21,039 nucleotides of DNA, taken from positions 1 through 21,039 of the IMG/VR virus record IMGVR_UViG_3300009187_000606, one strand, 5' to 3'. Made by a program: the position numbers and the translations under genes. Every line of letters starts with the position of its first letter. Position 1 is the stretch's first letter. The notes beneath the pieces are model-generated. The model saw nothing but the letters and a program-made list of their open reading frames with translations, was not told the DNA's origin and did no database searches. Shown in pieces: positions 1 through 21,039 of this stretch. This DNA is from a virus.

Positions 1-612
1 GCTAGTCAACCCAAATCCAAATATAGCTTTATCACCGCCATATCCTGCTGCTGCTAGTCCAACTCGTGCAGTACCAGTTAATGCGGTTTGATCAGCAGCA
101 ACAACACCAAGATTATTTACTAGATTAGTTGTTGATACCACACCGCCAATAGTACCAGTAAAACCAAATCCAAATATAGCTTTATCAGTCCCGTATCCTG
201 CTGCTGCTAGATTTCGTCTTGCAGTACCAGTTAATGCGGTTTGGTCAACAGCAACAACACCGGTATTAGATACTAGATTGGTTATTGATATTGCAGCAAT
301 ATCTGTTGCACCAAATCCAAATATAGCTTTATCAGTCCCGTATCCTGCTGCTGCTAGATAATATCTAGGAGTACCAGTTAATGCAGTTTGATCAGCAGCA
401 ACAACACCGGTGTTAGATACTAGATTGGTTATTGAAACAGCAGAGCTAGTCAACCCAAATCCAAATATAGCTTTATCACCGCCATATCCTGCTGCTGCTA
501 GTCCATATCTTGCAGTACCAACACTGAGTGTATCAATAGCCACAACACCAGCCTCATTTACTAGATTGGTTACGTTGGTAATACTGCCGGCCACACCAAA
601 TCCAAATATAGC
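1..612 (-). repeat. Kelch-like ~48-residue repeats at the distal end of the giant gene
   Basis: Five copies of the core DKAIFGFG (the first degenerate, SGKAIFGFG) are encoded, with DNA cores starting at 598, 457, 313, 166 and 13. Spacing is 47, 48, 49 and 51 codons in translation order. Each full unit reads roughly LAAAGYG.DKAIFGFG, then TNLVSNTGVV and ALTGTAR. DNA conservation is high: a 20-base core within aaatccaaatatagcttt is shared by all copies. The pattern fits a beta-propeller or kelch-like fold of about 48 residues per blade, common in phage fibres (family-level inference). The array continues past the window edge, so the blade count is unknown. Confidence 0.85.
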
Positions 613-6600: not shown

Positions 6601-9600
6601 AGCACTGGCTAATCCAAATTGTGAACCAATTGTATAATTATTTGGATTGGTTAATTGTTGGAAGTAAGTAAACTTATTTCCACTAATATTAATAATGTCA
6701 CCTGCTGTTAATGTACCTACATAATATAATGAGCTTCCTGCAATACCATATTGATTATCAGCAACTATAGTCCCATTTAAGGAAACGTAAATAGGAACAG
6801 TTTGCACACTAGCAATCATTCCATTACCATTTGAATTAGTCAATTGATACGGATTAAGTTGTTCTTTGCTAACTTTAATCCTAAATGTAGTATCATTTAC
6901 TATGCTATGAATATAGTAAATTTGGTTAAATGATATATTACTATTAGGGTAAACTGTACCGTAGAATATAACAGGATCATTAACATTAAATCTCCTAGTG
7001 CTAGCAGCGCATGTAATAGTATTGTTGGAACTAGATGTTTGAAAAACAGCAGTTCTAGCAGTTACGTGGTTCCAGCCCAATCTAAATACTTGAGGTAAAC
7101 CTGGAGTGGTATTTACTTGCACTTCTACGTTTTGAACAGACCTACTAAAAAGATAAGCGGCGCCTGCATTGGTAATTGAATTTACTGTTTGATTTGGTGC
7201 GCCAATTGTTACTGTTTGACCATAATAATCGGTAGAGATTGAATAACCAAAGTTATCTCCTACAGTAGTCAACGATAATTCGTTACCGTCAATAACTGTT
7301 ATATATCTATATGTTGTATTTGTTGCTGAACCAGTACCTGATCCAACTCCAGTTGCTATAAAAGATAACCCTACAATGTTATTAGTAGCACCTACTAGGG
7401 TAAAATCTGTAGTGCCTAAGTCAGTAATAGTATAAGTTTTCCCTACTATAAAGAATCCGGCTGGTGTTGAAAAATTGTTTCTTCTGTAAACATATACAGA
7501 ATTATTGTCATAGTCGGAAATATAAAGCCAATTCTTATCACCTGATATCGCAGTAGCAGCTCCCCAACTTGTTGTATTAGCCGGACCGGTAATTGGATTT
7601 TGATATAATATTAAGTCATCCGATAATACATTATTTTCTAGTATGTATAGGTAAACTGCAGGCGTAGAATTTGTTGTAGATGTTAAAGTAGAGGTTAAAG
7701 TAGAGGTTAAAGTAGGTGTTAAAGTAGGCGTAGTAATTGGTCCACTTGCCACTGATGTATTCCAAGTCCAAGTACTTGGTGTTACTGTAAAGCTATGTGT
7801 TCCACCTTCTGCCGATATATCCCAAGCCCAATAAGTTGGATCTACCGAAAAGCTATAATTAGTAGTTGGCTCTGATATTACATATAAATCACCCGCGTGA
7901 CTAATAGTAGTACCAAATGATCTATTGCCAGTAATAGTCTGTACTAATTGATAAGTTTGTAAAACTTCATTGTAAGTATATCTATATACTTCTCCTACTC
8001 CACTATCTCCTACTAAATAACCTAATTTTGTACCGGTTGCAACTGCACTACCATAAGTTGAACTATTTAATTTATTAAATTCTTGTTCATATTGATAGTT
8101 AATACTCTTTCTTAAGACTGCCCAATCACCAGTTGAATATGTATCTACCCATACTGTATTCTTAATGAACTCTGCATTCAATAAGTTTAAGTTATTAATA
8201 TCCGCAGGAGTAGCAACACGTTGAGTTTGAAAACTTAATCCCACACCCAAACCTGTAGCAAGTCTGATGTTAGGATCTAGATTTAGATTGATTATTACTC
8301 TAAATGGATCAACAATCTGAGTTGCAATATAGTAACCATTAATAGCAGCATTAAGATTAATAATTGCAAAGATATTGTATTGTGATAAATTATGTTGATT
8401 AGCAAAAGTAATCGTAACCGTACCATTTAAATTATTTAAAGCTTGAGTTATTGGTCCAATTGATGCAGGAGTATACACTTGCCAAGTACCTAAATAACTT
8501 GCTAGCCAAACATATTCTCTTACATAGAAGTCAGATAAAGGAATTACCGTACCATTTTGATTTACAGCAGTTGGTAAATTAGCATAAAAATAAGATGACA
8601 TTCTAACGTCATTATAATTTACATATCCTGCATCAGGATATAAAGTAGATGGTTGGTTGATAGGAGTAACCGCTAGGATATCAGGATCATTGATTGAACG
8701 ACCATAATTAAATAGCGAGTATAACGGAATTTCTTGTTCGGCACCTACAGTTGGGGCACCGTTAGTAAGAGCAACAATACTTGGATTACCAGTCATTAAG
8801 CTTTCACTAATCTTAAATTCTACAAAATTAGTGTTTAATACTCCACCAAACTCGCCTGCTTTAATAGCCCAATTTTCATAAATGTCATAATCTATTCCGC
8901 CCTGTGGTAGAGTTGCACCTTTAAATGCACTAGCTGCGTTTAGAGTACCTTTGTTTTTAATTAAATTTTTATAGACATTAATCTGTGTAATTTCAGTTAA
9001 ATCTACTGTTGTTAGATAATCTCTTGGACGATAACCAATTAAAGAAAAGCTTAATAAATCAGCATCTTCTTCTATATTAGCTTTGTTGCTATCATAATAT
9101 AGGGTGCTTTCATAGGATCTAGTACTAGAATTTGGCAATAATCCTTTTTGAATTTGATCATATTCAGTCTTTCTCCAATTCTGTTCATTGAAGGTAGCAC
9201 TTGGTTGAACTATTCTTAATGCTACCCAATACTTATTCTTGTAAAGTACAATAGAACCTTTAGTGTAAGTTATATCTTTGTTCCACTGCAATATATTGTC
9301 TTGGTTAAGAATAAAACCTGATGCAGTAAGAGTACCGTCCCAAGCAGCGGTTTTACTACCTCTAACATAAATTCTAAGTTGTCTAGAACCAGTTACTAAG
9401 TCATATATAACATCATCAAATAAAGTAACATTATTAAAGACAATACCGTCCTCTAGATTACCAATATTAAATTGTCCATATGCTAGTGAATCGCCATTAT
9501 TAACTGGTCTAGCGAGGAACAAAGTACCATCTCTAAGAACATTTAAATCGGTAGCTTGAATAGGATATAAATTCTGATTTAAAATGAAATTTTCTTGACG

Positions 9601-12600
9601 TATAGTAAGAGGTTGTACTATATATCCATCTCTATTAATTTTTAAATATCCAGCTGCTGGATTAATAGTTTCTAAGCTACCATTTTCCCAACCTAACTGA
9701 ACCCAATAAAGGAATTCAGATACCATTTGATTCCAACTAACTTCTATACCAGATTGAATCTCATCAAATACCATACCATGGGCACGTAAATATGCGCCAT
9801 AACTAGTTAAAAACTGAGCAACTTCTTGTACAGTATAGAATAATGTGCCATACGGTACTATTACTTCTTCATCATAATAATCAGTAGCAAGTTTAACCGT
9901 TAGAGTTTCTACATTAACTACTTCATTTATTCCTGTGAATTTTGGTTTAAGAGTAGTAAAATATGCTTGTGTTTGAGAATTACCAAATACTAAATATCCT
10001 TCACTTGTTATCTGAACAATAACAGAACTATAAATGATTCTATCAAAAGGTTGATTATCATATAATAGAACTTGATAACTTGCATCAGGAATTAATAGTG
10101 AAGCATTGGTACTATTAGGAGTAGCTTTTTCTATATAAAAATTAATTAAATTCTTATCAGTAAACCCTGCTACTCTATAAACTAATCTAACATCTAAATT
10201 GTTTAATAAGTCAATAATATTTTGAGTAGCATCTACCCCTAATTGTTTTTCATAATCAACTACCCAGTTCATGTAACTTGTTTTGGGCGTACCAGTACCA
10301 TAAACTTGAATGTTTGCAGGTACTAAGTGGCTACGATTATTAACTAAGTATTGATTAAACTCTGTGTTGAATTTATAATTGTCTAGGTCAGCACATAAAT
10401 TAAAGAATTGTGTAGGCTCGGTTAGAGCATATATTCTCATTAAATCAAAGGGCCAAGAACTGCTTCTGCGATAACTTAATTCAGCAGGACCCTCATCTCC
10501 AACTTTCCAATCATGTTGAAATGTAGAAGCGGTATAGTTACCAACAATTGCGTTAAACGGAGATAACAACTCACCTGCACTATTAACAGGTATTACTTGT
10601 AATAATTGAGGTCTTACAAATTGTTCTAATACTACTGGATTACCATCATTCCAATCAATACCCGCTGCTAAATCATTCCAAAGAATCAAGTTATTACTGG
10701 TATAGGGTGCTGGACCATATCTAGTTTCCCACCAACTTGGTTGCTCTTGGAATCCTAACATCTGCCATGGAGTTAAATTAGGTGTAGTAGTATCATAATA
10801 CCACTGATACACACCACGCCAATAACCCTGATAGATAGGTTCTTGATTTATCTTGTTTCCACTTTGATAATAGTTAAATGTAAATTGATCGTTTTTGTTG
10901 TATAACTGCTTCTTATAATCAATTCTATTTTGCCCGACCCAATTCAAAAACATTTTACTATAGATTTCTAAAATTTCACCATTAGTAAATGCAGTTTCTC
11001 TAAAAAATCCAGGTATAATGTCGTATTGCGATATAGGAACACTAGTGCTTAATTTCAAGTTGTTGTAAACTCTAAGTTCAAATTCAAGTAAAGCTTGGTC
11101 TCTGAAGTCTACTAATACCCCTAAATTAGTATTGTAGGTACCATATAGCTTGTTATATGAACCATCATGGCCCTTAATAAAATATGTGGGCTGAGCATAA
11201 TCTGAATCTAATACAACTTCGGGAATAAATGCAGGATATAATCCCAATTTAGTAGGAGTATTTGGAATATAACTACCATATGTTTGATTGTATTCTTTAA
11301 TTGTAATTACAGCACCATTTTGTAAAGGAGATATAATTGTTAGTGAAGGGGTAGTGGTACTAATAATATAATCTTGATTAGTAACCAATTGTTTGGTTAT
11401 AGTTACGTTAGATATAGTAGTAGAAAGATAAACTAATACACCTGAATAATTAGCAGTAGAGAAGTTATAAACTTGACTTAATGGGTAAGTCGGGGCGATA
11501 GATGGTGTAGTATATGTATAACTATTAATAATATAGGGTGACTTTGATGGAATCATGTCACTCCAAAAGAATGGCTGAGATTGAATCTTAACTTGATTAA
11601 TCTGAGTTAATGCATCATCTAATATAGTAGATGGATTAAATCTTTGTGTATAGTCTGTATTATTAACAGTGTCTACTAACAGAGTTTTAAATTTAATATA
11701 TTCTCTGCTATTAAACATTAACGCATTGAATATATTTTGATTTGGTTTTCTTAAGAATGCACCAGGTAATACTAATGATGCACTATTTTGTATTATTCTG
11801 TCGCCCCATGGAACTAAATTACCCAAATCTCTGTAATTGTTTGATCCAAATACTTGACCGGTTGTGTTTGGATTATTATAAAATATAGTTTGATATTGAT
11901 TTTTAATATCACCTACATTAGCAATTTCCAAGTTAGCATTAAGTGGATTATTACTTAAATTAATAGGAATGCTATAATATGCGGTGGTACTTACTTGATT
12001 ACTAAACAATAATATTTGTACAACAGTGTCAACTAGAATATCAACTAATATATGAACTACTGTAGAATTATTATTTACAGTATATTCATAATCGGTGCTA
12101 GGCAATAGTACATTGTTTATTAAAACTTTGATAACAGGCCAATTAGTAGCAGAAGTATTATTTACTGCAACATCACATGTAAAAAATACTTGCGGATCTG
12201 TTATATTATAATCAAATTCAAATACTTGATATTGAATACTGGGTGATACAGCGGTTTGCCAACCTAATTCTCTATTATAAAGACTTCTAGTTTCATAGTT
12301 ATAAACATAACCAGTATTGACATTTTGAGTTATAGGTTGAAAATTGCTTACATAATCAAAAGTATCGGTATTAATAGATACGTCAAAACTAATATCGCCG
12401 ATATTAGCCACTGTGCTATATCTAATTGGAAAACCTAAAACTTGATCTTTTGTTCCTGTTCCAATGCCATATGCAAATAATTTACTACCAATAAACGAGC
12501 TTCCAACATATACTGCTTTATCACCAAAGCTAATACCATTTTCGTCAAATACATCAAACAAAGGTGGCTGATTTACTGTATTTTTTTGTTGCGCTTGAAG

Positions 12601-15114
12601 CCATTCTAAACCATCATACCAAACACTTTTTCCTGCATAATTGTAACCATTAATCACAACAGCTTGATCACCGACTAGAATCTCACCATTTGGTGCTTCG
12701 CTTAATGTAAGAACAGGTGTTGTCCCTGATATAACAGAATATCTAGCAATATATATTTTTGTTCTAACAGCAGGATCAGTTGCTGCTGCAAATACTACTC
12801 TAGCCCCATTGAATAATGAATAGTTATTAACTGGATCGGGAACAGCTATTAAAGATGCGGTAGTAGTTCCTGTAAAAAAACTATATGAGATAGTATCCCA
12901 TACTACTTCTAAAGTCAAAGTAGTTGTCCCTGAAACAGAAGATATTTGTGTTTCAGGTGGTAATAAATTTGTTGAATCTGTTATGTACTGACCTACTTTG
13001 AAAGTACCTGTTACGTCAGCACCATCGATAGTTATTACAGTGCTTTGTGGAGTCCAATAAAACTGCATTGTTCCAGTGCCAGTAGAAAGGTCAAATACAC
13101 CTCCACCTTTAGTTTCTGAAATTGTAAATTTAGTACTGCTAACTACTTCTGAAACATAGTAATATTCACCCGCAACAATATTACCAAACACTGCTCCTGA
13201 GCTAATAGTAAATCTTACTAAATCGTTAACTCTAAATCCTGAAGTACTGCTGCATGTAATTTCGTCAGTCGTGCCATTAGTAGATGTGGCAGTGCGTGAA
13301 CTTGTATATGTAGTTGTAGCAATTGTAGCGGTATAGTCTGTATATACCTGAACATCAGGGTAATAATTCTCTTCGCCCGATACTAATAGCAAAGGATCGG
13401 TAGTGCGAAAATCTATAAAATTGAGAGGAGCTTTGCCTTCAGTACCTGAATCAAATAATCTTAAGTTTGGATAAAATTCAATGATAGGTCTTTTAGCTTT
13501 ATTATATTGAGAAGCATATAATAATATTGTAGGATCATTGTTGTATTCAGCAGTCGCTCTAATAACATCAATATGAAACCATCTATTGCTTCTAGACCAA
13601 GCATTTTTGCTTAATGCATTTCTAGCTATAGTAATATAATCAGGATCTGTGGGTATATAAGGTATACCTGACCAACCACCTATGTCCCATGGGGTAGAGT
13701 CATATGGCAAATAGACCGATGTTGAAAATGATTCAGGAACTATAAGACTTGATACAGGAATAAGTTCTATTGCTGTACCTACACCTTCAACATAAAAATC
13801 TTCAACTGTGTATGCTTCAGGGACGATATTACCTTGAAATTGTACTTTTAATCCATTGGTAAACGTAACACCATTGGAAGAAGTATATGTAGTTTTACCT
13901 AATATTTCAGTCACAACATTAATGGTATCAGTCGTATTACTGTCAATAAGTCTAATCATCCCTACTTTATCGCTTGAAGTACCATCTTGATAATAAAGCG
14001 TGTCTAACTCAGCACTTAAGTAAGGTATTAATGTAATAATCGTTGCTGTATTTCTAAAAAACTGTCTACCTGAATAATCAGTACCATATTGCGCGGTAAT
14101 CTTTTGATTAGTTGGAATACTGGTAGCAGGCGTAAGTTGTAATTGTGGATTAGAAGTAGATCCAATATAAGTAATTGTGAAAAATTGTGCGCTTACTAGT
14201 TGACCATAAGCCATTTCATTTGGATCACCTGTATTGTAAAACATAACAGTTAATCCATTTAGTGAAGTTACTCCATCAATATCATTTAGAGTGTTTAGAT
14301 AACTTCCATTTACTTGAGAGAAAGGAAGTATACTTACTACACTAACAGTATTATTACCTGGTAAATTATATTCGTCTTGTGCATTTTTAGCAGGCACAGT
14401 AAAAGTCACAACACCTGTAGTAGCACCGTTGTTAACAACTCCTAATACATCTCTGGTTTGTACATTTGGTTGAGTAATACTATAACCTGTAATACCCGGT
14501 TGACCCTGAATCCAAAACTGAGTTGGTTGATCTACAGTAAAGGTATAAGTACCGCCGCGTAATAAAGTTAAAGTTGGGTTTCCTAATGAAGTTCCTGCAG
14601 GTTCTGTAGCAATTTCATAAGAGTTTGCGCCGTCGATCACATAATATTGTTCTGACGAATATGCAATAGCAGATGTTACTACTACTGGAGGAAGACCTTC
14701 AGGCAACCAGTAATACTGATGAAAGTTAACATTTGTATCTAAATTAGTAAATGAATCCCAAGAATAAAATTCGCTATTAAAAAGTCGGTTATTATTATTT
14801 GTTATCCCACCTTCTAATTTAAGAGCATCTAATATTCCAGGATAGCTTATGAAATCTTGTGCAACATCTTGATCGGTTTTTCTAAACACAACACCTGGAT
14901 CAAGTTGGTAATCTGTTCTAACTTTTGTTGGTTCAGTTACATAATAATCTTTAGCATTAATTCCATATCCAACTCTAGTACCAATATATCCCTGAATTCT
15001 TTCAACAGAAGGTTGTGCAACTAGTTGGTCTAATGTTGCTGCTAAGAATTGAGCGTTAGTCGGAGTTTGAAATATCTCTGGGAGAAAATCTAAAGTTCTT
15101 ATTTTTGTGGCCAT
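1..15114 (-). CDS. Giant modular virion structural protein (tail/baseplate appendage), 3' end outside window
   Basis: ATG at 15114 opens a frame with no stop to position 1, giving 5038 codons, and the C-terminus lies outside the window. It starts MATKIRTLDFLPEIF and has FLAATLDQLV near residue 23. Segments I recognise from giant structural proteins of aquatic T4-like phages are PDYITIAR...WSRSNRWFH...AKRPIIEF (about 491-560), VNQPPLFDVFD..G.SFGD (about 845-870), YIPNTPTKLGLYPAF then IKGHDGS (about 1280-1319), YWRGVYQWYYDTT..LTPWQMLGF (about 1427-1457), RPRQSFFLFRLLAVKNYL (about 3409-3427) and EVKPYHVVFKEF (about 3642). A seven-bladed FG-GAP propeller spans about 2350-3125, YYV beta modules about 3880-4625, and kelch-like repeats run from about 4832 on. 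No signal peptide or membrane segment was noticed. The start lies five bases after the tandem TAA closing the gp6 frame; only a weak AGG lies upstream, so translational coupling is likely. Its place just after gp6 suggests the N-terminus docks on the wedge (inference). Function is probably adsorption or fibre-like; exact role unknown. Confidence 0.88.
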   Translation of the reverse strand, partial: MATKIRTLDFLPEIFQTPTNAQFLAATLDQLVAQPSVERIQGYIGTRVGYGINAKDYYVTEPTKVRTDYQLDPGVVFRKTDQDVAQDFISYPGILDALKLEGGITNNNNRLFNSEFYSWDSFTNLDTNVNFHQYYWLPEGLPPVVVTSAIAYSSEQYYVIDGANSYEIATEPAGTSLGNPTLTLLRGGTYTFTVDQPTQFWIQGQPGITGYSITQPNVQTRDVLGVVNNGATTGVVTFTVPAKNAQDEYNLPGNNTVSVVSILPFSQVNGSYLNTLNDIDGVTSLNGLTVMFYNTGDPNEMAYGQLVSAQFFTITYIGSTSNPQLQLTPATSIPTNQKITAQYGTDYSGRQFFRNTATIITLIPYLSAELDTLYYQDGTSSDKVGMIRLIDSNTTDTINVVTEILGKTTYTSSNGVTFTNGLKVQFQGNIVPEAYTVEDFYVEGVGTAIELIPVSSLIVPESFSTSVYLPYDSTPWDIGGWSGIPYIPTDPDYITIARNALSKNAWSRSNRWFHIDVIRATAEYNNDPTILLYASQYNKAKRPIIEFYPNLRLFDSGTEGKAPLNFIDFRTTDPLLLVSGEENYYPDVQVYTDYTATIATTTYTSSRTATSTNGTTDEITCSSTSGFRVNDLVRFTISSGAVFGNIVAGEYYYVSEVVSSTKFTISETKGGGVFDLSTGTGTMQFYWTPQSTVITIDGADVTGTFKVGQYITDSTNLLPPETQISSVSGTTTLTLEVVWDTISYSFFTGTTTASLIAVPDPVNNYSLFNGARVVFAAATDPAVRTKIYIARYSVISGTTPVLTLSEAPNGEILVGDQAVVINGYNYAGKSVWYDGLEWLQAQQKNTVNQPPLFDVFDENGISFGDKAVYVGSSFIGSKLFAYGIGTGTKDQVLGFPIRYSTVANIGDISFDVSINTDTFDYVSNFQPITQNVNTGYVYNYETRSLYNRELGWQTAVSPSIQYQVFEFDYNITDPQVFFTCDVAVNNTSATNWPVIKVLINNVLLPSTDYEYTVNNNSTVVHILVDILVDTVVQILLFSNQVSTTAYYSIPINLSNNPLNANLEIANVGDIKNQYQTIFYNNPNTTGQVFGSNNYRDLGNLVPWGDRIIQNSASLVLPGAFLRKPNQNIFNALMFNSREYIKFKTLLVDTVNNTDYTQRFNPSTILDDALTQINQVKIQSQPFFWSDMIPSKSPYIINSYTYTTPSIAPTYPLSQVYNFSTANYSGVLVYLSTTISNVTITKQLVTNQDYIISTTTPSLTIISPLQNGAVITIKEYNQTYGSYIPNTPTKLGLYPAFIPEVVLDSDYAQPTYFIKGHDGSYNKLYGTYNTNLGVLVDFRDQALLEFELRVYNNLKLSTSVPISQYDIIPGFFRETAFTNGEILEIYSKMFLNWVGQNRIDYKKQLYNKNDQFTFNYYQSGNKINQEPIYQGYWRGVYQWYYDTTTPNLTPWQMLGFQEQPSWWETRYGPAPYTSNNLILWNDLAAGIDWNDGNPVVLEQFVRPQLLQVIPVNSAGELLSPFNAIVGNYTASTFQHDWKVGDEGPAELSYRRSSSWPFDLMRIYALTEPTQFFNLCADLDNYKFNTEFNQYLVNNRSHLVPANIQVYGTGTPKTSYMNWVVDYEKQLGVDATQNIIDLLNNLDVRLVYRVAGFTDKNLINFYIEKATPNSTNASLLIPDASYQVLLYDNQPFDRIIYSSVIVQITSEGYLVFGNSQTQAYFTTLKPKFTGINEVVNVETLTVKLATDYYDEEVIVPYGTLFYTVQEVAQFLTSYGAYLRAHGMVFDEIQSGIEVSWNQMVSEFLYWVQLGWENGSLETINPAAGYLKINRDGYIVQPLTIRQENFILNQNLYPIQATDLNVLRDGTLFLARPVNNGDSLAYGQFNIGNLEDGIVFNNVTLFDDVIYDLVTGSRQLRIYVRGSKTAAWDGTLTASGFILNQDNILQWNKDITYTKGSIVLYKNKYWVALRIVQPSATFNEQNWRKTEYDQIQKGLLPNSSTRSYESTLYYDSNKANIEEDADLLSFSLIGYRPRDYLTTVDLTEITQINVYKNLIKNKGTLNAASAFKGATLPQGGIDYDIYENWAIKAGEFGGVLNTNFVEFKISESLMTGNPSIVALTNGAPTVGAEQEIPLYSLFNYGRSINDPDILAVTPINQPSTLYPDAGYVNYNDVRMSSYFYANLPTAVNQNGTVIPLSDFYVREYVWLASYLGTWQVYTPASIGPITQALNNLNGTVTITFANQHNLSQYNIFAIINLNAAINGYYIATQIVDPFRVIINLNLDPNIRLATGLGVGLSFQTQRVATPADINNLNLLNAEFIKNTVWVDTYSTGDWAVLRKSINYQYEQEFNKLNSSTYGSAVATGTKLGYLVGDSGVGEVYRYTYNEVLQTYQLVQTITGNRSFGTTISHAGDLYVISEPTTNYSFSVDPTYWAWDISAEGGTHSFTVTPSTWTWNTSVASGPITTPTLTPTLTSTLTSTLTSTTNSTPAVYLYILENNVLSDDLILYQNPITGPANTTSWGAATAISGDKNWLYISDYDNNSVYVYRRNNFSTPAGFFIVGKTYTITDLGTTDFTLVGATNNIVGLSFIATGVGSGTGSATNTTYRYITVIDGNELSLTTVGDNFGYSISTDYYGQTVTIGAPNQTVNSITNAGAAYLFSRSVQNVEVQVNTTPGLPQVFRLGWNHVTARTAVFQTSSSNNTITCAASTRRFNVNDPVIFYGTVYPNSNISFNQIYYIHSIVNDTTFRIKVSKEQLNPYQLTNSNGNGMIASVQTVPIYVSLNGTIVADNQYGIAGSSLYYVGTLTAGDIINISGNKFTYFQQLTNPNNYTIGSQFGLASANNLQSTEILVSAPFQINNQVEEGGIFRYTNGGTSYGQIFGTAICNVTATIPILLNGYLVLIPEGNATVAANAINSNKVTNITATTSGSNNEYLVISLINQDLAIPNASLSLTVFDINTLTELGITVYTKTQTVSCPHLGERNQFGTTIKFNEQNSFVASAPVGSRYSSTTFDFTDDENFTNDTVFDNNATQWVDIFVNAGAVYMFDYLSVYNENINNTGDYVLAQNANARNIDYGKQPYYGTALDFNNYSVIVGAPLFRPDYVNGQVVTFLNTSGEKDWSLYRSSSPIVDINRIQNSQLFSALTNETLINLDYIDPLQGKLLGAVSENIDYVSNVDPANYNNQNNLKWGVTNVGQLWFDTSNVRFVNYHQNDLVYNSQYWGTVFPGSDVAVYSWISSIDLPINYQGPGTPYDVTLYCTQFDLNANNVLAPVYFYWVRNTNIIFTKLGNTLSDSIIETYIRSPKNSGISYFAPLLPNTFGLYNSGDYINVNDSVFHIGYSTGTNDDVGHTSYDLIRADYADDFLSGLPRYGANVEPQYLYRRFLASMSGVDDSGQVVPDPFLPIAVRSGVQVRPRQSFFLFRLLAVKNYLTYANEILAQFPIIELSPQATFLYKSGPFYNTADYWEYVNWWATGYDNNTKASVQVPLYSDLSTLSVAFGTIAEVTTNGNGNSETYIYTVDGVWVRIGLTNGTIAFKSSLWDYAGANTGFGGNYFDTTPYDQYPSTETYYILRALNEQIYIDDFVIYRNKSLILIFEYIVAETSETQNYLPWLNKTSLVDVTHTLRELKPYEVFSSDNQDFLYGYLNEVKPYHVVFKEFLFKYTKTEPYLMNVTDFDLPAQYVASDAQFISPELVYSNPSSDSQFLPENPIWNQQEYTQWYQNYGLSITGHPDFNIATLESYISINTTEIAVSNINGFPVAGTVKIGTELISYETVNRETYTLGGLSRGLNGTPINNHLPGELIYTDLPPVLVVYGSHSYTEPPRVTAYIDTSIYPAPRVPAVFAAVMNVDSVLEIEVINPGSGYAVLPTIVVDPAETYTFGSGSVNVILNTITLEAPNLVTGDQVQYEVGVATTAIGPLVDGEWYYVNVLSSTPVTTIALYTSYDDAINDNFRINFNSTGTGSSQSLNLGARAFAITNSTPVRENIITMRFDRTSYEPQVVEWLPEQFYGASYAGNYNQISSSAIQLESTSPPIGSVLASGQGIGLEIDQVENQVIYSWSGFPRRVTNTYSGSNTIRLNPYDGGVGEPTASGSTIGFYVGMPIKIDGASIGGIITDVTYYVQSIVSDVLFTISQTESGSVYPLTTATAAADTVTLYTAQVINQAILTVNYPGILEVTSIEDSNIITVPLNPTGTGGTNGFYVNMPIFFTGDVFGNIIANEVYYVHTICSSQTFTISTQTDPVVYTLANTVATGNLVTLTNQTMDLAVNDTVIFTNFVFTSGNFIVGQTYTIVSLGTTDYTLIGAPFNAIGITFTATGVGTGTGTASSTVFGNIVSGQLYYVAGVSGANSFSVKEQINSSVFTLINSQGTGLVTAQADAVDLAVSTGTMTVNCNLPISPGQITGQQFSMYTTSGQYPNISGSVSNLITRTLPATLAGSNRIPMTYTSGGATNIYVNMPLKFARAIGGLSAGPTVYYVKEVGTTTFPVTNTNAPSTVGVVTGSIAGYVLTVTSVTSGLIVNGATITGTGVVAGTTIISQLSGLPNSTGTYQVSSSQTVSSTSITATISYLTIPSTYSTNVLYPGMPVVFDALSIGGVDLNTEYFVLSIISATRFSISLAPGGEAVIMSTGTGNYMRCTGQDYITVSATQGGSVIPLIGSTTSSNSFTFTQYPILSPVFDVSWILGGYNVVITNPGLGYAVSNTITIPGTLIGGTTNNNLTITVNKLQEYAPNQSYGAVADVITAGVVPTQATKYFLKAVAPNQLAVYSNSQLTVPVSGINFPYYGTTQTTVTGTIGTSVFSVDPTTWTWNVLAQGGTYSFTAAPSSWTWNISAPSGSGKAIFGFGVAGSITNVTNLVNEAGVVAIDTLSVGTARYGLAAAGYGGDKAIFGFGLTSSAVSITNLVSNTGVVAADQTALTGTPRYYLAAAGYGTDKAIFGFGATDIAAISITNLVSNTGVVAVDQTALTGTARRNLAAAGYGTDKAIFGFGFTGTIGGVVSTTNLVNNLGVVAADQTALTGTARVGLAAAGYGGDKAIFGFGLTS
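623..735 (-). repeat. WTWN module, distal copy (paired with 7742-7854)
   Basis: It encodes FSVDPTTWTWN, then GGTYSFTAAPSSWTWN. Each copy is itself two 20-residue units, with the WTWN half-motifs exactly 60 bases apart. My hand alignment to 7742-7854 gives about 92 identical bases of 113, and the copies lie 2373 codons apart in the same frame. This copy sits directly before the first kelch-like unit and appears to replace that unit's usual LAAAGYG lead-in. I do not recognise a named family; an aromatic beta-hairpin that binds a surface or glycan is only a guess. Confidence 0.8.
1240..3480 (-). repeat. Array of divergent YYV...FTIS beta modules in the giant protein
   Basis: At least six related modules lie in this stretch, each reading roughly 'MPI.F.....FGNI..G..YYV..I.SS..FTIS....G'. 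Clear examples are VFGNIIANEVYYVHTI..SQTFTIS near 2400-2560, IGGIITDVTYYVQSIVSDVLFTIS near 2690-2860, LVDGEWYYVNVL near 3330-3400 and LNTEYFVLSIISATRFSIS near 1260-1345. More distant members lie near 13080-13300 (VAGEYYYVSEVVSSTKFTIS) and 6870-7000 (FNQIYYIHSIVNDTTFRI). The stretch also holds NPGSGYAVLPTIVV (about 3500-3560) and a second GYAV motif near 1030-1060. A G..GTTI-type segment (TGTGVVAGTTIISQL) lies near 1500-1650. Such short beta modules are common in aquatic phage fibres; ligands are unknown. Confidence 0.7.
2146..2283 (-). repeat. 46-residue VG.TYTI...GTGTA module, copy nested in a YYV module
   Basis: It encodes GNFIVGQTYTIVSLGTTDYT, then LIGAPFNAIGITFTATGVG and TGTGTAS. It shares 30 of 46 residues with the copy at 7321-7458 by hand alignment. 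The flanks are the two halves of one YYV module: VIFTNFVF before it, and VFGNIVSGQLYYV after it. Intact YYV modules elsewhere read straight from a '..F' strand into FGNI..G..YYV. The module therefore looks inserted into a pre-existing domain. Similar VG.TYTI..VGTTDFT..GA sequences are common in aquatic phage structural proteins; their role is unknown. Confidence 0.8.
7321..7458 (-). repeat. 46-residue VG.TYTI module, copy nested in propeller blade three
   Basis: It encodes GFFIVGKTYTITDLGTTDFT, then LVGATNNIVGLSFIATGVG and SGTGSAT. It matches the copy at 2146-2283 at 30 of 46 residues. It follows SVYVYRRNNFSTPA, the end of a blade's outer strand, and is followed by TYRYITVIDGNEL and then the next blade's FGYSIS. 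This places the module between two strands of a propeller, a different host domain from the other copy. Confidence 0.8.
7682..7729 (-). repeat. Four tandem 12-base repeats encoding a Thr/Pro/Leu linker
   Basis: Four head-to-tail copies of gttaaagtagag (plus strand) are present: the first two identical, the last two ending ggt and ggc. On the coding strand they give TPTLTPTLTSTLTSTLTS. Being a multiple of three, copy-number change would keep the frame and only lengthen or shorten the linker. It tethers the WTWN module to the second half of the split propeller blade. Confidence 0.9.
7742..7854 (-). repeat. WTWN module, proximal copy inside a propeller blade
   Basis: It encodes SFSVDPTYWAWDISAEGGT, then HSFTVTPSTWTWN: two 20-residue half-units 60 bases apart. 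About 92 of 113 bases match 623-735. The module follows FGTTISHAGDLYVISEP and, after the Thr/Pro linker, the blade resumes with AVYLYILE. It therefore occupies the loop between the two strand pairs of one FG-GAP blade. Confidence 0.82.
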
Positions 15115-15119
15115 AATTA

Positions 15120-15317
15120 TTATCTTGCCTGTAATTGGACTTGCGTCAGGGCTGGTATTACTAGTACATCATTTGATGTCGCTGCGTTGACAAAAATTTG
15201 ATAAGGGGCACATTTTATCTCATACAAATTTCCAAATGTCAACGTAGGGTCATTAGGAACTAAGACGGCTGAACTAATAAGGGCACCTATTTCAGAATGT
15301 AAGTAGGCACTTAACTA
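15120..15317 (-). other. In-frame continuation of gp6 beyond its amber codon (64 codons)
   Basis: The TAG at 15317-15315 is followed in the same frame by 64 sense codons starting LSAYLHSEIGALISSAVLVP, then FGNLYEIKCAPYQIFVNAA and ending TQVQLQAR, closed by TAA TAA. The frame has no ATG or GTG, so an independent gene is unlikely. From memory of gp6-like proteins of aquatic T4-like phages, the C-terminus commonly reads 'FGETFYFTEL.AYIH...', with Glu where the amber stands. One G-to-T change (GAG to TAG) would explain it. The extension also fills the 200-base gap and ends five bases before the next ATG, as tightly packed phage genes do. The alternatives are readthrough, a nonsense mutation, or a sequencing or assembly error. 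Confidence 0.75.
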
Positions 15318-18300
15318 TGAAAAATAGAAAGTATCGCCGAAATGACAATTATTTATATTAAAATAATTATTCATTGTGGTTAACACTGCGCTACGAATTT
15401 CACTGTCGCTAGCATTAGTATTAGAAGTTTTAATTACTTTAATAGTTGCCCTTAACTGTGCTGGTGCTTTTGGTCCAAACAAGGGTTGAAAAATAACACT
15501 GTTTAAAATAACAGAATCACTAATCATCTTATAATCATTTACTTGACCATATGCTTGACTTAACTCATTGATAGTTGGTCTATCAGGCTCAGGTATAGTA
15601 TTAGTAGTGTCTACTATATAATTAGTATATGCTGTATAGTAAGCTTGAGTTACAACATATAAGTCTATAATATTTGTGGTAGCTGGATCAATTCTAGTTG
15701 TATTATTAGAATTGTGTCTATATTGGAATTGTAATCCTTGACGACCCGGCTTCATTGAATACTGAGGTTGTGCTACTAAAGTATAGTACGGGGTAGTTAC
15801 TGTAGTACTCTGAACAGTAGTATAAAATAGATTATCTGTATAAGCGTAAAATATTTGACCTAATGGATAATCATACTTAATAACTTCAATTGAATTCATC
15901 GTAGGATATTGATAAACAACATCTGTTGTAGTAATAAGTTGATATCTAGCTAAATTTATTGGATCTTGAACAAGTTCAAAGAAAGCGTATATACCAAAAT
16001 TCTGAGCACCTGTTACATAACCTGTTACTGTATTAAAGAAATCAGGATCAGTAATAATAAGTCTGTTATTAACATCAGTTGCAGATACCTGAACTTCATA
16101 ATCATCTATATATCCATCAGCTAACACTGTTTGACCCACAATATTTACTTGAACATTTGAAGCTAACGGATAATTTGAATTAGGTTGTGTATTAGTAGCT
16201 AAAACATTTATAAAATCTTGTAGAATTTTACCAGTAAATGGGTCATAAACTAGTTTATCTCTTTCAAAAGAAAATCTGGTATCATATACACTACCAAAAT
16301 AATATATTAAAGATTTATAAGATACTGAGTATCTATTATTACCTAAACTTAAAAAATTGATAAAGTAGCTAGGATCATTATAATCAGCAATAGACCATCT
16401 GTCTTCAACAATAGTCAACCCATTATTAAACACTAGAGAAAAGCTTTGCTGTAATTCTATTCTGATAATACATTCTTGAATAATTTCATTACTAAATGTA
16501 TTACTAAAAGCTGGAATCACTTGAGTTAAAATGGCGCCTGTTGGGACATAACCATTTAATGCGACAGGGCCTGTTCCGTTTGAGAAAGATCCATCACCTT
16601 GATTAAATCCATCTCCAATTACATTTAAAACACTAGTCCAAAAATAAGTTGCATTAGACGGGCCAGCAATGCCCGATACCAATCTATTATTTGAATCAAA
16701 GTAATAACCTGATGGTGCAACAAATTTAACTAGAGCACCGGGTGTTATATACTTTACATTGTATCCTGAAAAAGATCCAACTGGAATAGGTGCATTAGTA
16801 CCATTAATAATATTATAATAATAACCAGTTAAAGAATTAGCATCAACTGTACTAGTTTGCCAATATACTGTGCCATCGCCAGTAGATGTATTTACATTGT
16901 ATCTAGTATAATTTTGTAGATAATATTGAGTTGTTTTATTTAATAATAATTCAGATGCCAAAGTGTCCGTTAAAAAAGTAATGATGTTACTAGTATCATT
17001 CACAGTAAGAATCAAATTACCATCTGCATCATCTAAATATAATCCACCATCACTAGCGAAAGAATTTAAACTACTGTATTTTCCTGTTGGATCTAATAAA
17101 TCTAAATTTTTAGAAACACCAATTGAACTTCTATTAATCGCTTTACTTTTAATTATAGAACTGTATAGAGTATAAGGAAAGTTATTATAATCTTCCCCGT
17201 TTACCATACGATTCTGTGTATAGTAGCGAGTAGGAGCACGTAGTTTGATTTGTGGTAAAGTCTCTCTAGACTGAGCATTAGAAACAGGAGTTGGTAATTG
17301 TAAACCAATGGTTAGAGTTTCAATTCTGTTCAATCTACTTAAATAAGAAAATGCAACAGTTATACCCTGCATTTCTGAAGGATCAATGGTATATGTCAAT
17401 CCATTAGAAGAACGAACATATGCTCTGAAATTACCAACTGGTATGGCTGAGAATATTCCATCACCAAAATTGTAGTTAACTACGTCATTAAAACCTGATC
17501 CTACCGAAAAGATTCTTTTCTCACTAGAAGCTGTTTGTAGGTATGCATTAGCATATACATTTTCAACTTTAACCCATGGACTTAGTCCGCCATTAGCTGC
17601 ACTTATTTGATATAACCAAGTATCTGTATTATTAACACCTTGAATGTCAATGTTGACTACTTGATTTGAAATTTGTTGCTGTAGTGTAAAATCGTAATTT
17701 TGTAAAATACCTTGTTTAAAATAGAAAAAATAACCTGTATTTGGACTACCATATCCCAATTTATCGTTTCTATATAACATGTTGAATCTACCTGTTGGAG
17801 CAGGTGGAATTTCATACAAATAATCTTCATCTAAACTTGTTACACTAACAAGTTCAAAATTCATAGTTAAACCATTTACTGTAGAAGAAAATGGTGCTAT
17901 TGGTAAAGTTCCTTGAGGAATATTTATAGCATATTCGCTAGTAGTAATACCTAATAAGTCTGCGGTATTACCCGGACGGCCAACTTTTTGCGTGTTAATT
18001 AGGGTAGAATTGACAATTGTATTGTACTGCTCTAACCAATTTGGGTTAGCTGGGTCATTCCAAAGTATAGTTAAATTACCTAAGTTAACACCATTCAAAT
18101 CAGTGATATTTTCAGTAGTGTTAATACTTGTTATCTTTAAAAACCCTTGTGCAGCTAGATTTCTTTTAGGTGTATAGCTTACTAAGTTAGCAAGCTTGAC
18201 TACTGAATCTCTGCGTTCAGCAGTATCAATGAAATTTTCTCTAGTATTTAAATCATTTCGGAAAGCCAGACCTTGGCCCATAAAAGCCATAACGTCTAGT

Positions 18301-18491
18301 AATGCTATAAATTCACTGCTTTCTATATAATCATTAAATGTCTCAGGATAATAGGTACGTAGGTAATCTACAAAACTCTTGCGTAGTGTTTCATAATCAT
18401 AAGACCGAAAATCTGCTTCTCTAAAGGTTTGGTATATAGATTTCCAATCATTAACACCAAATAAGGCCGATTGTCTGCTGCTGGTTGCCAT
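15315..18491 (-). CDS. 6: Baseplate wedge protein, T4 gp6-like (ends at amber; probably continues to 15120)
   Basis: 1058 residues to the TAG, or 1123 if the amber is read. In T4, gp6 forms the ring that ties the six baseplate wedges together. The N-terminus carries the family hallmark: FRSYDYETLRKSFVDYLRTY, then ESSEFIALLDVMAFMGQGL, FRNDLNTRENF and a VKLANLVSYTPKRN stretch (residues about 28-112). The middle and C-terminal parts are beta-rich, with no membrane segments or signal peptide. It is longer than T4 gp6 (about 660 residues), as is usual in aquatic relatives. The ATG at 18491 is preceded by AAGAG seven bases upstream, a modest ribosome-binding site. It lies 54 bases after the gp25-like gene and just before the giant structural gene, which fits a wedge operon. 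The amber end is odd: the last residues before it, FGDTFYFS, look like the middle of a conserved C-terminal motif. Confidence 0.92.
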   Translation of the reverse strand: MATSSRQSALFGVNDWKSIYQTFREADFRSYDYETLRKSFVDYLRTYYPETFNDYIESSEFIALLDVMAFMGQGLAFRNDLNTRENFIDTAERRDSVVKLANLVSYTPKRNLAAQGFLKITSINTTENITDLNGVNLGNLTILWNDPANPNWLEQYNTIVNSTLINTQKVGRPGNTADLLGITTSEYAINIPQGTLPIAPFSSTVNGLTMNFELVSVTSLDEDYLYEIPPAPTGRFNMLYRNDKLGYGSPNTGYFFYFKQGILQNYDFTLQQQISNQVVNIDIQGVNNTDTWLYQISAANGGLSPWVKVENVYANAYLQTASSEKRIFSVGSGFNDVVNYNFGDGIFSAIPVGNFRAYVRSSNGLTYTIDPSEMQGITVAFSYLSRLNRIETLTIGLQLPTPVSNAQSRETLPQIKLRAPTRYYTQNRMVNGEDYNNFPYTLYSSIIKSKAINRSSIGVSKNLDLLDPTGKYSSLNSFASDGGLYLDDADGNLILTVNDTSNIITFLTDTLASELLLNKTTQYYLQNYTRYNVNTSTGDGTVYWQTSTVDANSLTGYYYNIINGTNAPIPVGSFSGYNVKYITPGALVKFVAPSGYYFDSNNRLVSGIAGPSNATYFWTSVLNVIGDGFNQGDGSFSNGTGPVALNGYVPTGAILTQVIPAFSNTFSNEIIQECIIRIELQQSFSLVFNNGLTIVEDRWSIADYNDPSYFINFLSLGNNRYSVSYKSLIYYFGSVYDTRFSFERDKLVYDPFTGKILQDFINVLATNTQPNSNYPLASNVQVNIVGQTVLADGYIDDYEVQVSATDVNNRLIITDPDFFNTVTGYVTGAQNFGIYAFFELVQDPINLARYQLITTTDVVYQYPTMNSIEVIKYDYPLGQIFYAYTDNLFYTTVQSTTVTTPYYTLVAQPQYSMKPGRQGLQFQYRHNSNNTTRIDPATTNIIDLYVVTQAYYTAYTNYIVDTTNTIPEPDRPTINELSQAYGQVNDYKMISDSVILNSVIFQPLFGPKAPAQLRATIKVIKTSNTNASDSEIRSAVLTTMNNYFNINNCHFGDTFYFS

Positions 18492-18508
18492 ACGTTTTCT
18501 CTTTTAAG

Positions 18509-18516
18509 TATTTATC
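18509..18516 (-). promoter_or_regulatory. Possible T4-type late promoter upstream of gp6
   Basis: The minus strand reads GATAAATAC, seven of eight matches to the T4 late promoter element TATAAATA. It lies in the only sizeable gap between the upstream genes, about 18 bases before the gp6 ATG. Transcription would start just before the gene. The genome is AT-rich, and equal or better matches occur inside coding sequence, so this rests mainly on position. Confidence 0.3.
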
Positions 18517-18545
18517 AAACCTGTAAACCATGGTTTTTAAGTAAA

Positions 18546-18995
18546 TTACTGAATAGTCGCTCTACTAGTATTAGAGTCAAAAAATACACTCAATACCAAT
18601 GGATTATTAAAAGGGGCAATAGCTATTTCTAGTTCTATTAAAATACCAAGCTCTTGTGGGAAAGCAGCTACCGTATTTAAAATTAGTCTAGGATCTAGAC
18701 TAGCAACTCTTCTGATTTCATTTTCTAGTTGAAACTGAACATCAGCCGTATTTGGCTCAAATACAAAAGACCAAATAGTCGTGCCATATGCAGGTTGACC
18801 TACTTTTTGTCCTTGTGTTATATTTAATGCATTGATAAAATCTTGAATTACAAGAGGAACGTCTACTAGAGTATATTTTTTACCTGTGTTAACAGGTCTG
18901 ACAATTCCACCTACACCCCCATCAGTACCATTGACGGCATTAGTGGTTTTTGGTTGATTTGCTCCAATTGTACTGAATCCAATGTATGATGGCAT
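18546..18995 (-). CDS. 25: Baseplate wedge protein, gp25/GPW lysozyme-like family
   Basis: 149 residues. This family (T4 gp25, P2 gpW) is a small wedge component in all contractile tails; it joins the gp6 ring to the sheath and helps start sheath assembly. The core is VPLVIQDFINALNITQGQKV (about 46-65), then GQPAYGTTIWSFVFEP (66-81), and LENEIRRVASLDPRL (90-104), followed by a beta-rich end. The family's usual E-P-R triad is DPR here (101-103), a conservative change. A Gly/Thr-rich extension of about 40 residues precedes the core. The start is well supported by AAGGAG nine bases upstream of the ATG. The gene begins 19 bases after the preceding stop and lies directly before gp6. Despite the name, no muralytic activity is expected. 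Confidence 0.93.
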   Translation of the reverse strand: MPSYIGFSTIGANQPKTTNAVNGTDGGVGGIVRPVNTGKKYTLVDVPLVIQDFINALNITQGQKVGQPAYGTTIWSFVFEPNTADVQFQLENEIRRVASLDPRLILNTVAAFPQELGILIELEIAIAPFNNPLVLSVFFDSNTSRATIQ

Positions 18996-19004
18996 AATTT
19001 ATTG

Positions 19005-19010
19005 CTCCTT
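19005..19010 (-). promoter_or_regulatory. Ribosome-binding site of the gp25-like gene
   Basis: AAGGAG on the minus strand, nine bases before the ATG at 18995. It is the strongest Shine-Dalgarno in the window and sits in the 19-base gap after the upstream gene's TAA, so it fixes the gp25 start. Confidence 0.85.
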
Positions 19011-19014
19011 ACTC

Positions 19015-21039
19015 TTATAAATTATTTCTAAGTGTGGTAAGTACTGAAGCAGTACCGCTTAGTAGTTCTCTAGTCTGATCACGTTCAGGATTGCCAGTAT
19101 TAATAGGTCTAGTTATTCCTTGTAATGCATACTGCTGCTTTCTTAAAGCTAATATTTTTTTATTTAAAGACTCAACTTCTTCTAAAGAATTTTCAGCAGT
19201 CTTTCTAGCACTAGCTACTCTTGGATCTCCCTGTGGACTAGAATTTGCTAAGTCTCTATATTGCCTCTGAAGCAAATTAAAATTGATCTCAACGTTATCT
19301 CTCTCAATAATTAGGTCATCGATTTGTTTTATCACAGCATTTATTTTATTATTTTTTTCCTCTATTGTATTCAATGCAGCAGTAGCTGAATCCGAAACCG
19401 TTCCTGTTAAGTTTGGTGCGGGAACATTTCCTAATAACGCTTTAGTTTGATCATTTATTTGTGATCGGTCTGTAGTATTTACGCCTACTTGAGGAGTAAC
19501 AATCTTAACAAAACTTGAGCTTAATCCTGAAATTGCAGAATTTAATTTTGCAGCCGCTACAGCCGGCAATCCTGCTTGAACTAATGCCGATAAACCTAAT
19601 GATTTTAGTTTATCTAGCCCACTTGAAAGAAATCCAGTAACCGAACTTGCTATACTGCTTATTGATTTTCCTATTGTAGTTAAACTGCTTACTGAGTTTA
19701 TGGCGCTTGATATAGCGCCTGATAAAGAAATTCCATTAATAGCCGCAGTACTAGCACTATCAACAACTGCCTTAATAGATCCTGTACCCAGTATAGCGGT
19801 AGCCGCTTCGTTATTTGAGTAGTCTGTTATAGAAGAAATTGCATTTTGACCACCGGGTATCATATCGACTCCACTAGCGATAGCTGAGTTTGCCCCACTA
19901 GTAGTATTTGTAGTTGTGAACGCCCCAGCTAGTTTATTAGCGGCATTTGTAACTACTGATCCAGCTGAATTTATAGCTGTGGTTACTGTGGTTTTTATAG
20001 TATCAAGAGCACCGCTAACTGAAGATAGCAATGAATTACTAGATCTAGTAGCACCGGCTACTGCTCCAGCTACCGCGGCACCGGCTGCTGCTATTCCAGT
20101 GACACCTGCAACGGTGTCTGTTGCTGCCGCTGAGGTATTACTTGTTGCAGCCGCTGCCGATTCGGCCGCTTTTGCGGATGCGTTAATTGCTTCTAAATTC
20201 TGAGGAACCCCAGGTTTTAAAGTTGGTAATGCATTCTTAATTGAATTAAACGCATCGGCTGCTATTCCTTTAGCTCGGTTGATTATATTACTAATACCAC
20301 CTCCTAACTTACCCAAGAATCCTGATATTGCACTAAATGCGCCGCCCACAGCGCCTAGACTAGCTGCAAAATTTCCAGAGCCAATAGTTGATGTAATAGA
20401 AGAAAAATTTGACGAAAGACCGGCAAATGAATCGGTGAGTCCACCTAATGCAGGTACTTTAGCTGTTAAATTAGTTATTTTATCTAAACTATTACCTATA
20501 TTTTGACCTGTAGCAACTAAACCTTGAGCAGTATTAACTAAATTTTGACCTGTAGCAACTAAACCTCGAGCAGTTGTAACTGCTTTATTAACAGTAGTAG
20601 CAGCTTCATTGTAAGCGTCTATAACCGGGGCTACTCCAGCGGTAGCACCAGCTAATATTACCCCTGCAACATCTGCGGGTGCTTCTTTACCAGTCATTAC
20701 TCCTACTTGAGTTAGAGCAATTTGACCTCGTTGTAAGCCTTCAACCGCTATTTTAGCTTGTGCATCAATATTATCAGCAAGCTGAGCCGCACTTTCACCG
20801 CCCGGTTTATTACCGGTAAAAAGATTCTTAGGTAATACTTTAGCTAGTGTTGCCCCGGGATTTTGTGCCAATGACATTACCAATGGCGCAGATCCTGGTT
20901 TAATACAGCTGGAGTCTTGTAGTTGTTGCGGAGTTAATCCTAATTTACCTAACACTGGAACAGCACCTTGTGCCGTTTGCACTATACCTCCCCCCACAGA
21001 CGCAGCGAAATTGGCTGCACTACTTCCTACGTTAGTAGA
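19015..21039 (-). CDS. Ala/Gly/Ser-rich virion-associated protein with C-terminal coiled coil, 5' end outside window
   Basis: The frame is open to the window edge, giving 674 residues. A GTG at 20997 could be read as a start, but 14 in-frame codons precede it (STNVGSSAANFAAS), so the real start is probably outside. Near the visible start, LGLTPQQLQDSSCIKPGSAP resembles a 'TPQQLE.AG.IKPG' motif I associate with baseplate- or tail-adjacent phage proteins. A LFTGNKPGG and TGKEAPADVAG segment follows. The middle is low-complexity Ala/Ser/Gly helix, with a 14-residue duplication (GLVATGQNLVNTA / GLVATGQNIGNS). Two charged coiled-coil helices (NTIEEKNNKINAVIKQIDDL to about LANSS, then ASARKTAENSLEEVESLNKK) occupy roughly the last 120 residues before RPINTG. 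No enzyme motif was seen. Its position before gp25 suggests a hub, tail-tube-tip or tape-measure-like role, which is inference. The gene ends TAA 19 bases before gp25. Confidence 0.75.
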   Translation of the reverse strand, partial: STNVGSSAANFAASVGGGIVQTAQGAVPVLGKLGLTPQQLQDSSCIKPGSAPLVMSLAQNPGATLAKVLPKNLFTGNKPGGESAAQLADNIDAQAKIAVEGLQRGQIALTQVGVMTGKEAPADVAGVILAGATAGVAPVIDAYNEAATTVNKAVTTARGLVATGQNLVNTAQGLVATGQNIGNSLDKITNLTAKVPALGGLTDSFAGLSSNFSSITSTIGSGNFAASLGAVGGAFSAISGFLGKLGGGISNIINRAKGIAADAFNSIKNALPTLKPGVPQNLEAINASAKAAESAAAATSNTSAAATDTVAGVTGIAAAGAAVAGAVAGATRSSNSLLSSVSGALDTIKTTVTTAINSAGSVVTNAANKLAGAFTTTNTTSGANSAIASGVDMIPGGQNAISSITDYSNNEAATAILGTGSIKAVVDSASTAAINGISLSGAISSAINSVSSLTTIGKSISSIASSVTGFLSSGLDKLKSLGLSALVQAGLPAVAAAKLNSAISGLSSSFVKIVTPQVGVNTTDRSQINDQTKALLGNVPAPNLTGTVSDSATAALNTIEEKNNKINAVIKQIDDLIIERDNVEINFNLLQRQYRDLANSSPQGDPRVASARKTAENSLEEVESLNKKILALRKQQYALQGITRPINTGNPERDQTRELLSGTASVLTTLRNNL
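20501..20574 (-). repeat. Direct repeat of 32 bases, period 42
   Basis: Copies at 20501-20532 and 20543-20574 differ at one base of 32 and share ttttgacctgtagcaactaa. They encode a 14-residue duplication, GLVATGQN(L/I), in the helical Ala-rich part of the protein upstream of gp25. Two heptads per unit fit lengthening of a helix by slippage or unequal crossover. Confidence 0.9.

Follow-up and report, generated by a model that had tools for sequence, protein, structure and literature searches.

The amber codon that interrupts the gp6-like baseplate wedge gene of the window, which is an entire virus record of 21,039 bases, is most probably a local sequence error in this contig and no functional element, as judged by comparison with near-identical contigs and with relatives. 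The stop codon is a true observation, but the interesting readings of it fail; readthrough and suppression are very unlikely, and second to a local error comes a real dead allele, which would be very young. Glu occupies the TAG position in both contigs that cover the site at near identity, namely contig A (IMGVR_UViG_3300027971_000065, 51,403 bases), which spans the full 21,039-base window with 28 differences, 17 of them within one repeat region (20467-20567), and contig B (IMGVR_UViG_3300009068_002517, 26,363 bases), which spans window positions 1-18996 (18,996 bases) with 19 differences, although A and B may have reads in common with one another or with the sample of the window. The absence of the TAG from both contigs is what a sequence artefact predicts. 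A further contig, C (IMGVR_UViG_3300009184_002257), stops at 15463, short of the TAG site.

The gp6 frame and its surroundings

The gp6-like open reading frame lies on the minus strand (15315-18491, 1058 codons plus stop) and, as the first-pass annotation had described, it ends at a TAG (15317-15315, minus strand), which is codon 1059 of gp6. Behind it, in the same frame, follow 64 open codons that make up the detached C-terminus (15314-15123, minus strand) and a tandem TAA TAA (15122-15117, minus strand), the first TAA of which is the end of gp6 in contig B. The first 1058 residues matched PHROG 10646 with an E value of 5.5e-228 (best stretch, residues 1-842), a profile match over most of the length that places the protein among the gp6-like baseplate wedge subunits; the Pfam profile Gp6-like_1st gave 15.7 bits, below its cut-off of 27. 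The 64-residue extension alone also matched PHROG 10646, the baseplate wedge subunit family, at positions 1078-1139 of the 1142 in the profile (E=3.5e-12), which is not a chance match. Since the extension matches this profile, since relatives are longer than 1058 residues and since isolates align through the TAG site, sequence comparison indicates that the extension is the gp6 C-terminus proper, as the same annotation had proposed.

The ORF list does end the gene at the TAG, and the 1058-residue form might be taken as the normal gp6 with a spurious extension behind it; we regard this as next to impossible and reject it. Among the best 80 of 600 candidate relatives, all 37 whose gp6 was fully read continue past the site, with lengths of 1114-1135 aa and no internal stop, and their own stop beyond it is TAA in 36 and TGA in one. 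For the isolates Phosso (gp6 of 1198 aa) and 121Q (gp6 of 1153 aa), the alignment carries on across the site as far as the end of the protein; Glu and Asp stand at the TAG position and Trp at position 1049. The PHROG 10646 profile, too, takes in the extension.

An AlphaFold model of the intact sister gp6 was of modest quality (mean pLDDT 64.6, pTM 0.44) and placed Glu1059 in a helix (1057-1068) followed by a strand (1072-1079), with pLDDT values of 70-84 over residues 1051-1080; on this model the stop would cut a helix-strand unit near the protein end. In a fold search with the intact sister gp6, the phiKZ baseplate and the T4 5iv5 chains ranked first, and the eight chains with E under 0.001 belong without exception to baseplate or tail entries of phages (9xqs, 5iv5, 9f4a, 9vzk, 9ay5), with low TM-scores of 0.12-0.27. 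The T4 gp6 crystal structure 3h2t gave E 0.14 with the same modest model, and a search of PDB sequences with the sister gp6 returned one match, a nucleotidase with E 0.1.

Directly upstream of gp6 lies a gp25-like baseplate wedge gene (18546-18995, minus strand; PF04965, E=3e-06), a neighbour befitting a gp6 gene, whose match of 27.4 bits is barely above the cut-off of 27.2. Contig B ends at window position 18996, and the alignment of contig C is interrupted from 18996 to 19319, where the gp25-like gene starts, so that 18996-19319 marks either a variable spot or an assembly break. On the other side, the giant gene (1-15114, minus strand) has its ATG at 15114, just past the tandem TAA, and is cut by the contig end; the earlier statement that this frame lacks TAG was borne out, since the 5038 codons that extend to the contig edge include no TAG, TAA or TGA. 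In contig A the giant gene runs on to a TGA at L215:10787 (L215:39-10787), which by coordinate arithmetic gives 6260 codons plus the stop, and a giant gene also stands behind gp6 in Phosso (13.7 kb) and 121Q (10 kb). Window positions 11-615 match another place in the giant gene of contig A at 82%, with corresponding places in contig B, and also match places in the gene that follows in contig A at 67-77% (contig A coordinates G005:C1:39735-40165 and 44555-45403); by sequence these appear to be repeats common to the giant gene and its next gene. At 20467-20567 (minus strand) lies a 42-base-spaced repeat whose second copy is identical to the first in the window (25 bases) but differs from it in contigs A and C, reflecting either gene conversion or repeat misassembly. 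Contig A also encodes, at L217:993-4043:-, a portal protein of 1016 aa (PHROG 213), whose match to an HNH endonuclease at 472-548 suggests an intein-like or homing insertion.

The TAG site in relatives

The relatives were the best 80 of 600 candidate stretches, a set that lacks the near-identical contig A, is no census and, through the selection itself, may favour intact genes. Two of them, L003 and L068, terminate short of the TAG site, and the 78 that reach it all have Glu there (61 GAA, 17 GAG and no stops), so the Glu that had been given for this position was right. The surrounding motif in the relatives is FSELSAYLH, FTELSAYLH or a close variant, and no internal stop or split was found in the available part of gp6 in any of the 80. 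When IMG/VR was scanned for the motif with any stop codon in place of Glu, no stretch was returned, as against at least 120 with Glu; the stop pattern also admits TGG and matches the window itself, and the scan omits the record of the window and perhaps others very close to it. Genome contigs scanned for the same motif gave no match with a stop and likewise none with Glu, a result that is uninformative because the Glu pattern was as empty as the stop pattern.

These comparisons bear on the two functional explanations that had been offered for the stop. Programmed readthrough of the TAG would make a short and a long gp6, and a conserved 64-residue extension does stand in frame behind the codon, but that extension is the ordinary C-terminus in relatives and the TAG comes accompanied by damaged neighbouring codons. 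A stop used in this way would be conserved among relatives; instead the site is a sense codon in 78 of the 78 relatives reaching it (best 80 of 600) and in both near-identical contigs, and the IMG/VR scan held no stop at the motif. Programmed readthrough is therefore contradicted by relatives, sisters and IMG/VR alike, and we reject it as scarcely credible. Neither was anything seen in favour of the suggestion that readthrough couples translation into the giant gene, and the 37 full-length relatives each have their own gp6 stop past the site.

We hold it equally hard to believe that the TAG is read as sense, whether through recoding or through a suppressor tRNA of phage or host. Phages that carry suppressor tRNA genes and recode TAG do exist, as do recoded phages without such genes (PMC10607447). 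The first-pass annotation had proposed a search for a suppressor tRNA with a CUA anticodon; ARAGORN detected none in the window or in 18 plus four loci (two of the four repeated from the 18), which together take in the whole of contig A (51 kb) and of contig B (26 kb), and it gave no other tRNA gene either, although the phage genome is incomplete here, so that a tRNA gene may lie elsewhere and the result is no proof. Contig A has a late sigma factor gene (PHROG 12791, E=7.7e-74, residues 6-290 of 303 against profile positions 4-269 of 286) that ends at a TAG at about the length expected from the profile. TAG thus functions as a stop in contig A, and this, together with the absence of TAG from the 5038 codons of the giant gene, agrees with the earlier view that general recoding is unlikely; a recoding phage would have TAG in several conserved genes and leave it unused as a stop, and neither was seen in the giant gene and the ORF lists of contig A. 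Judging from their sense codon at the site, the sister contigs would need no suppressor tRNA for gp6. Suppression is contradicted by the sisters, by the 78 of 78 relatives reaching the site (best 80 of 600) and by the TAG stop in contig A, and was rejected.

Clustered changes around the stop and their origin

We defined window-only sites as those at which the window departs from a base common to contigs A and B, and found ten of them over the 18,996 shared bases compared (2313, 3442, 4373, 10554, 11328, 15180, 15317, 15344, 15345 and 15408). Five of the ten fall in a 229-base stretch (15180-15408, minus strand), the outer two being synonymous, while the inner three lie within 29 bases and are transversions of the A-C/G-T class. 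Besides the TAG, these comprise adjacent substitutions at 15344-15345 (minus strand), which give Cys at codon 1049 and His at codon 1050, so that the codons 9 and 10 upstream of the TAG are also aberrant, a feature that had been missed in the first-pass annotation. When ten sites were placed at random over 18,996 bases, five fell within a span of 228 in 5 of 200,000 trials and three within a span of 28 in 148 of 200,000 trials, in a test chosen once the cluster had been seen.

The residues affected are conserved ones. In a set given as 81 loci, all 79 relatives reaching these codons have Trp at 1049 and Glu at 1059, where the window has Cys and TAG, and at 1050, where the window has His, Asn is present in 66 of the 79, Thr in 5, Asp in 5, Gln in 2 and Ser in 1. 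The gp6 alignment has 295 columns that are invariant in the non-sister relatives, and the window departs from them at two, Trp1049 and Glu1059; its states unseen in the 78 non-sister relatives are at positions 736, 854, 1049, 1050, 1059, 1088 and 1122, the last compared in 31 rows only. Of random single-base changes in gp6, 60% (70% for A-C/G-T changes only) produced a residue that none of the 78 non-sister relatives has, and three damaging changes out of three therefore fit unselected errors. To judge from the sequences, the three damaging changes in 29 bases look never to have been exposed to selection, and the gp6 differences outside these three bases look selected, being synonymous in 2 of 2 cases against contig A, 4 of 6 against contig B (the two nonsynonymous ones at residues 564 and 1122) and 13 of 13 against contig C. 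Because two synonymous differences stand beside the three, some of the cluster may reflect real differences between strains. Contig B has differences of its own at 15061, 15110 and 15128, adjoining the window's cluster, one of which alters codon 2 of the giant gene, and this may therefore be a region where strains differ or assemblies are poor.

A local error would amount to a short stretch of wrong bases in the C-terminal end of an otherwise normal gp6 gene, most likely from one poor or chimeric read or from locally low coverage in the metagenome assembly. It would have brought three transversions into 29 bases, turning the Glu1059 codon into TAG and altering Trp1049 and residue 1050; in the living phage, translation of gp6 would presumably run on to the tandem TAA and yield a single 1123-residue protein. 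We infer the technical cause of the cluster from a stop that occurs in no other sequence examined, from the clustering and from the change of conserved residues. The class of the substitutions lends weak support, with three changes only: A-C and G-T confusions are named as common Illumina errors in PMC6053417 and PMC4381044. In the data of PMC6053417 itself, however, A-to-C and T-to-G are among the rarest miscalls, and this type accounts for one of the three changes, which reads A-to-C on the coding strand and T-to-G on the opposite one.

A real nonsense allele, with a dead gp6 in part of the phage population and its haplotype chosen by the assembler, is an unlikely explanation but deserves weighing. 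The synonymous differences at 15180 and 15408 flank the cluster, and the window's base at 15408 is also found in relatives L004 and L005, so that the stretch probably carries some true strain variation as well; against this, contigs A and B are intact at the site, and a dead essential gene would be expected to be rare and not to form the assembled consensus. T4 gp6 forms the baseplate ring, and its C-terminal dimers are thought to form as six wedges join round the hub (PMC3004832). A real truncation of gp6 would most likely be lethal. As modelled, the truncated product would lack the last helix-strand part of the C-terminal domain and should give no baseplates unless a co-infecting phage supplies gp6. 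Such an allele might have arisen possibly by one multi-base event, for example a hairpin-templated (quasi-palindrome) polymerase switch. We examined this because, in a single-strand fold, the bases at the two altered places are paired with neighbouring ones; published abstracts attribute multi-base mutations to template switching at imperfect inverted repeats. In two short hairpin stretches, picked after the fold was seen, the observed bases were the most stable (best of 4 for the TAG, best of 16 for the doublet), but in longer stretches the window came only 22nd and 33rd among 64, behind the more stable sister sequence (ranks 12 and 11). Moreover, in a fixed 41-42-base control, the TAG change was equalled by 19% of random single changes and the doublet by 63% of random double ones. 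The hairpin origin fails in the longer stretches and in the random controls and is thus a weak lead; a search of the window for a nearby donor of the changed bases, with 11-13-base words, showed that only two overlapping 11-mers around the TAG recur. We give very little credence to the fuller version, in which the three changes are real, share a hairpin-switch origin and constitute a common gp6 knockout kept by complementation in mixed infections. Were the allele real, a lethal allele of a structural gene would be frequent in a natural population of phages.

Local error is favoured over a dead allele because of the cluster of damaging changes. Of the four readings that had been offered, error and dead allele thus remain, while programmed readthrough and suppression are contradicted. 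A false lead towards two gp6 forms, amber suppression and coupling into the giant gene is thereby removed, and near-identical contigs together with a count of window-only changes at invariant residues provide a simple test for such leads.

Comparison with known systems

The baseplate wedge gp6 of T4 and of jumbo phages such as 121Q belongs to the same family as the gp6 of the window, PHROG 10646, and the latter shares 33-34% identity over 93% of its 1058 residues with isolates such as 121Q and pEa_SNUABM_47. The gp6 of contig B has 1123 residues, as against 648 and 658 in two matched 5iv5 chains, which we take to be T4 gp6, as fits their length; T4 gp6 structures are in PDB 3H2T and 5IV5. Phosso and 121Q share the gene order of the window, with a baseplate wedge or baseplate-annotated gene upstream of gp6 and a giant gene downstream, and 121Q differs in having an intron-linked gene between gp6 and the giant gene. 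The TAG and the two odd codons in the gp6 C-terminal domain belong to this contig alone.

As in phAss-1 and the crAss-like phages that recode TAG, the codon lies here inside a conserved structural gene. However, phAss-1 has 41 ORFs with TAG and recoding phages often carry suppressor tRNA genes, as stated in PMC10607447, whereas here there is one TAG, no tRNA gene was found in the scanned DNA and TAG is a stop in contig A. A further, putative likeness is to the substitution artefacts of short-read assembly, with clustered A-C/G-T transversions in a single contig.
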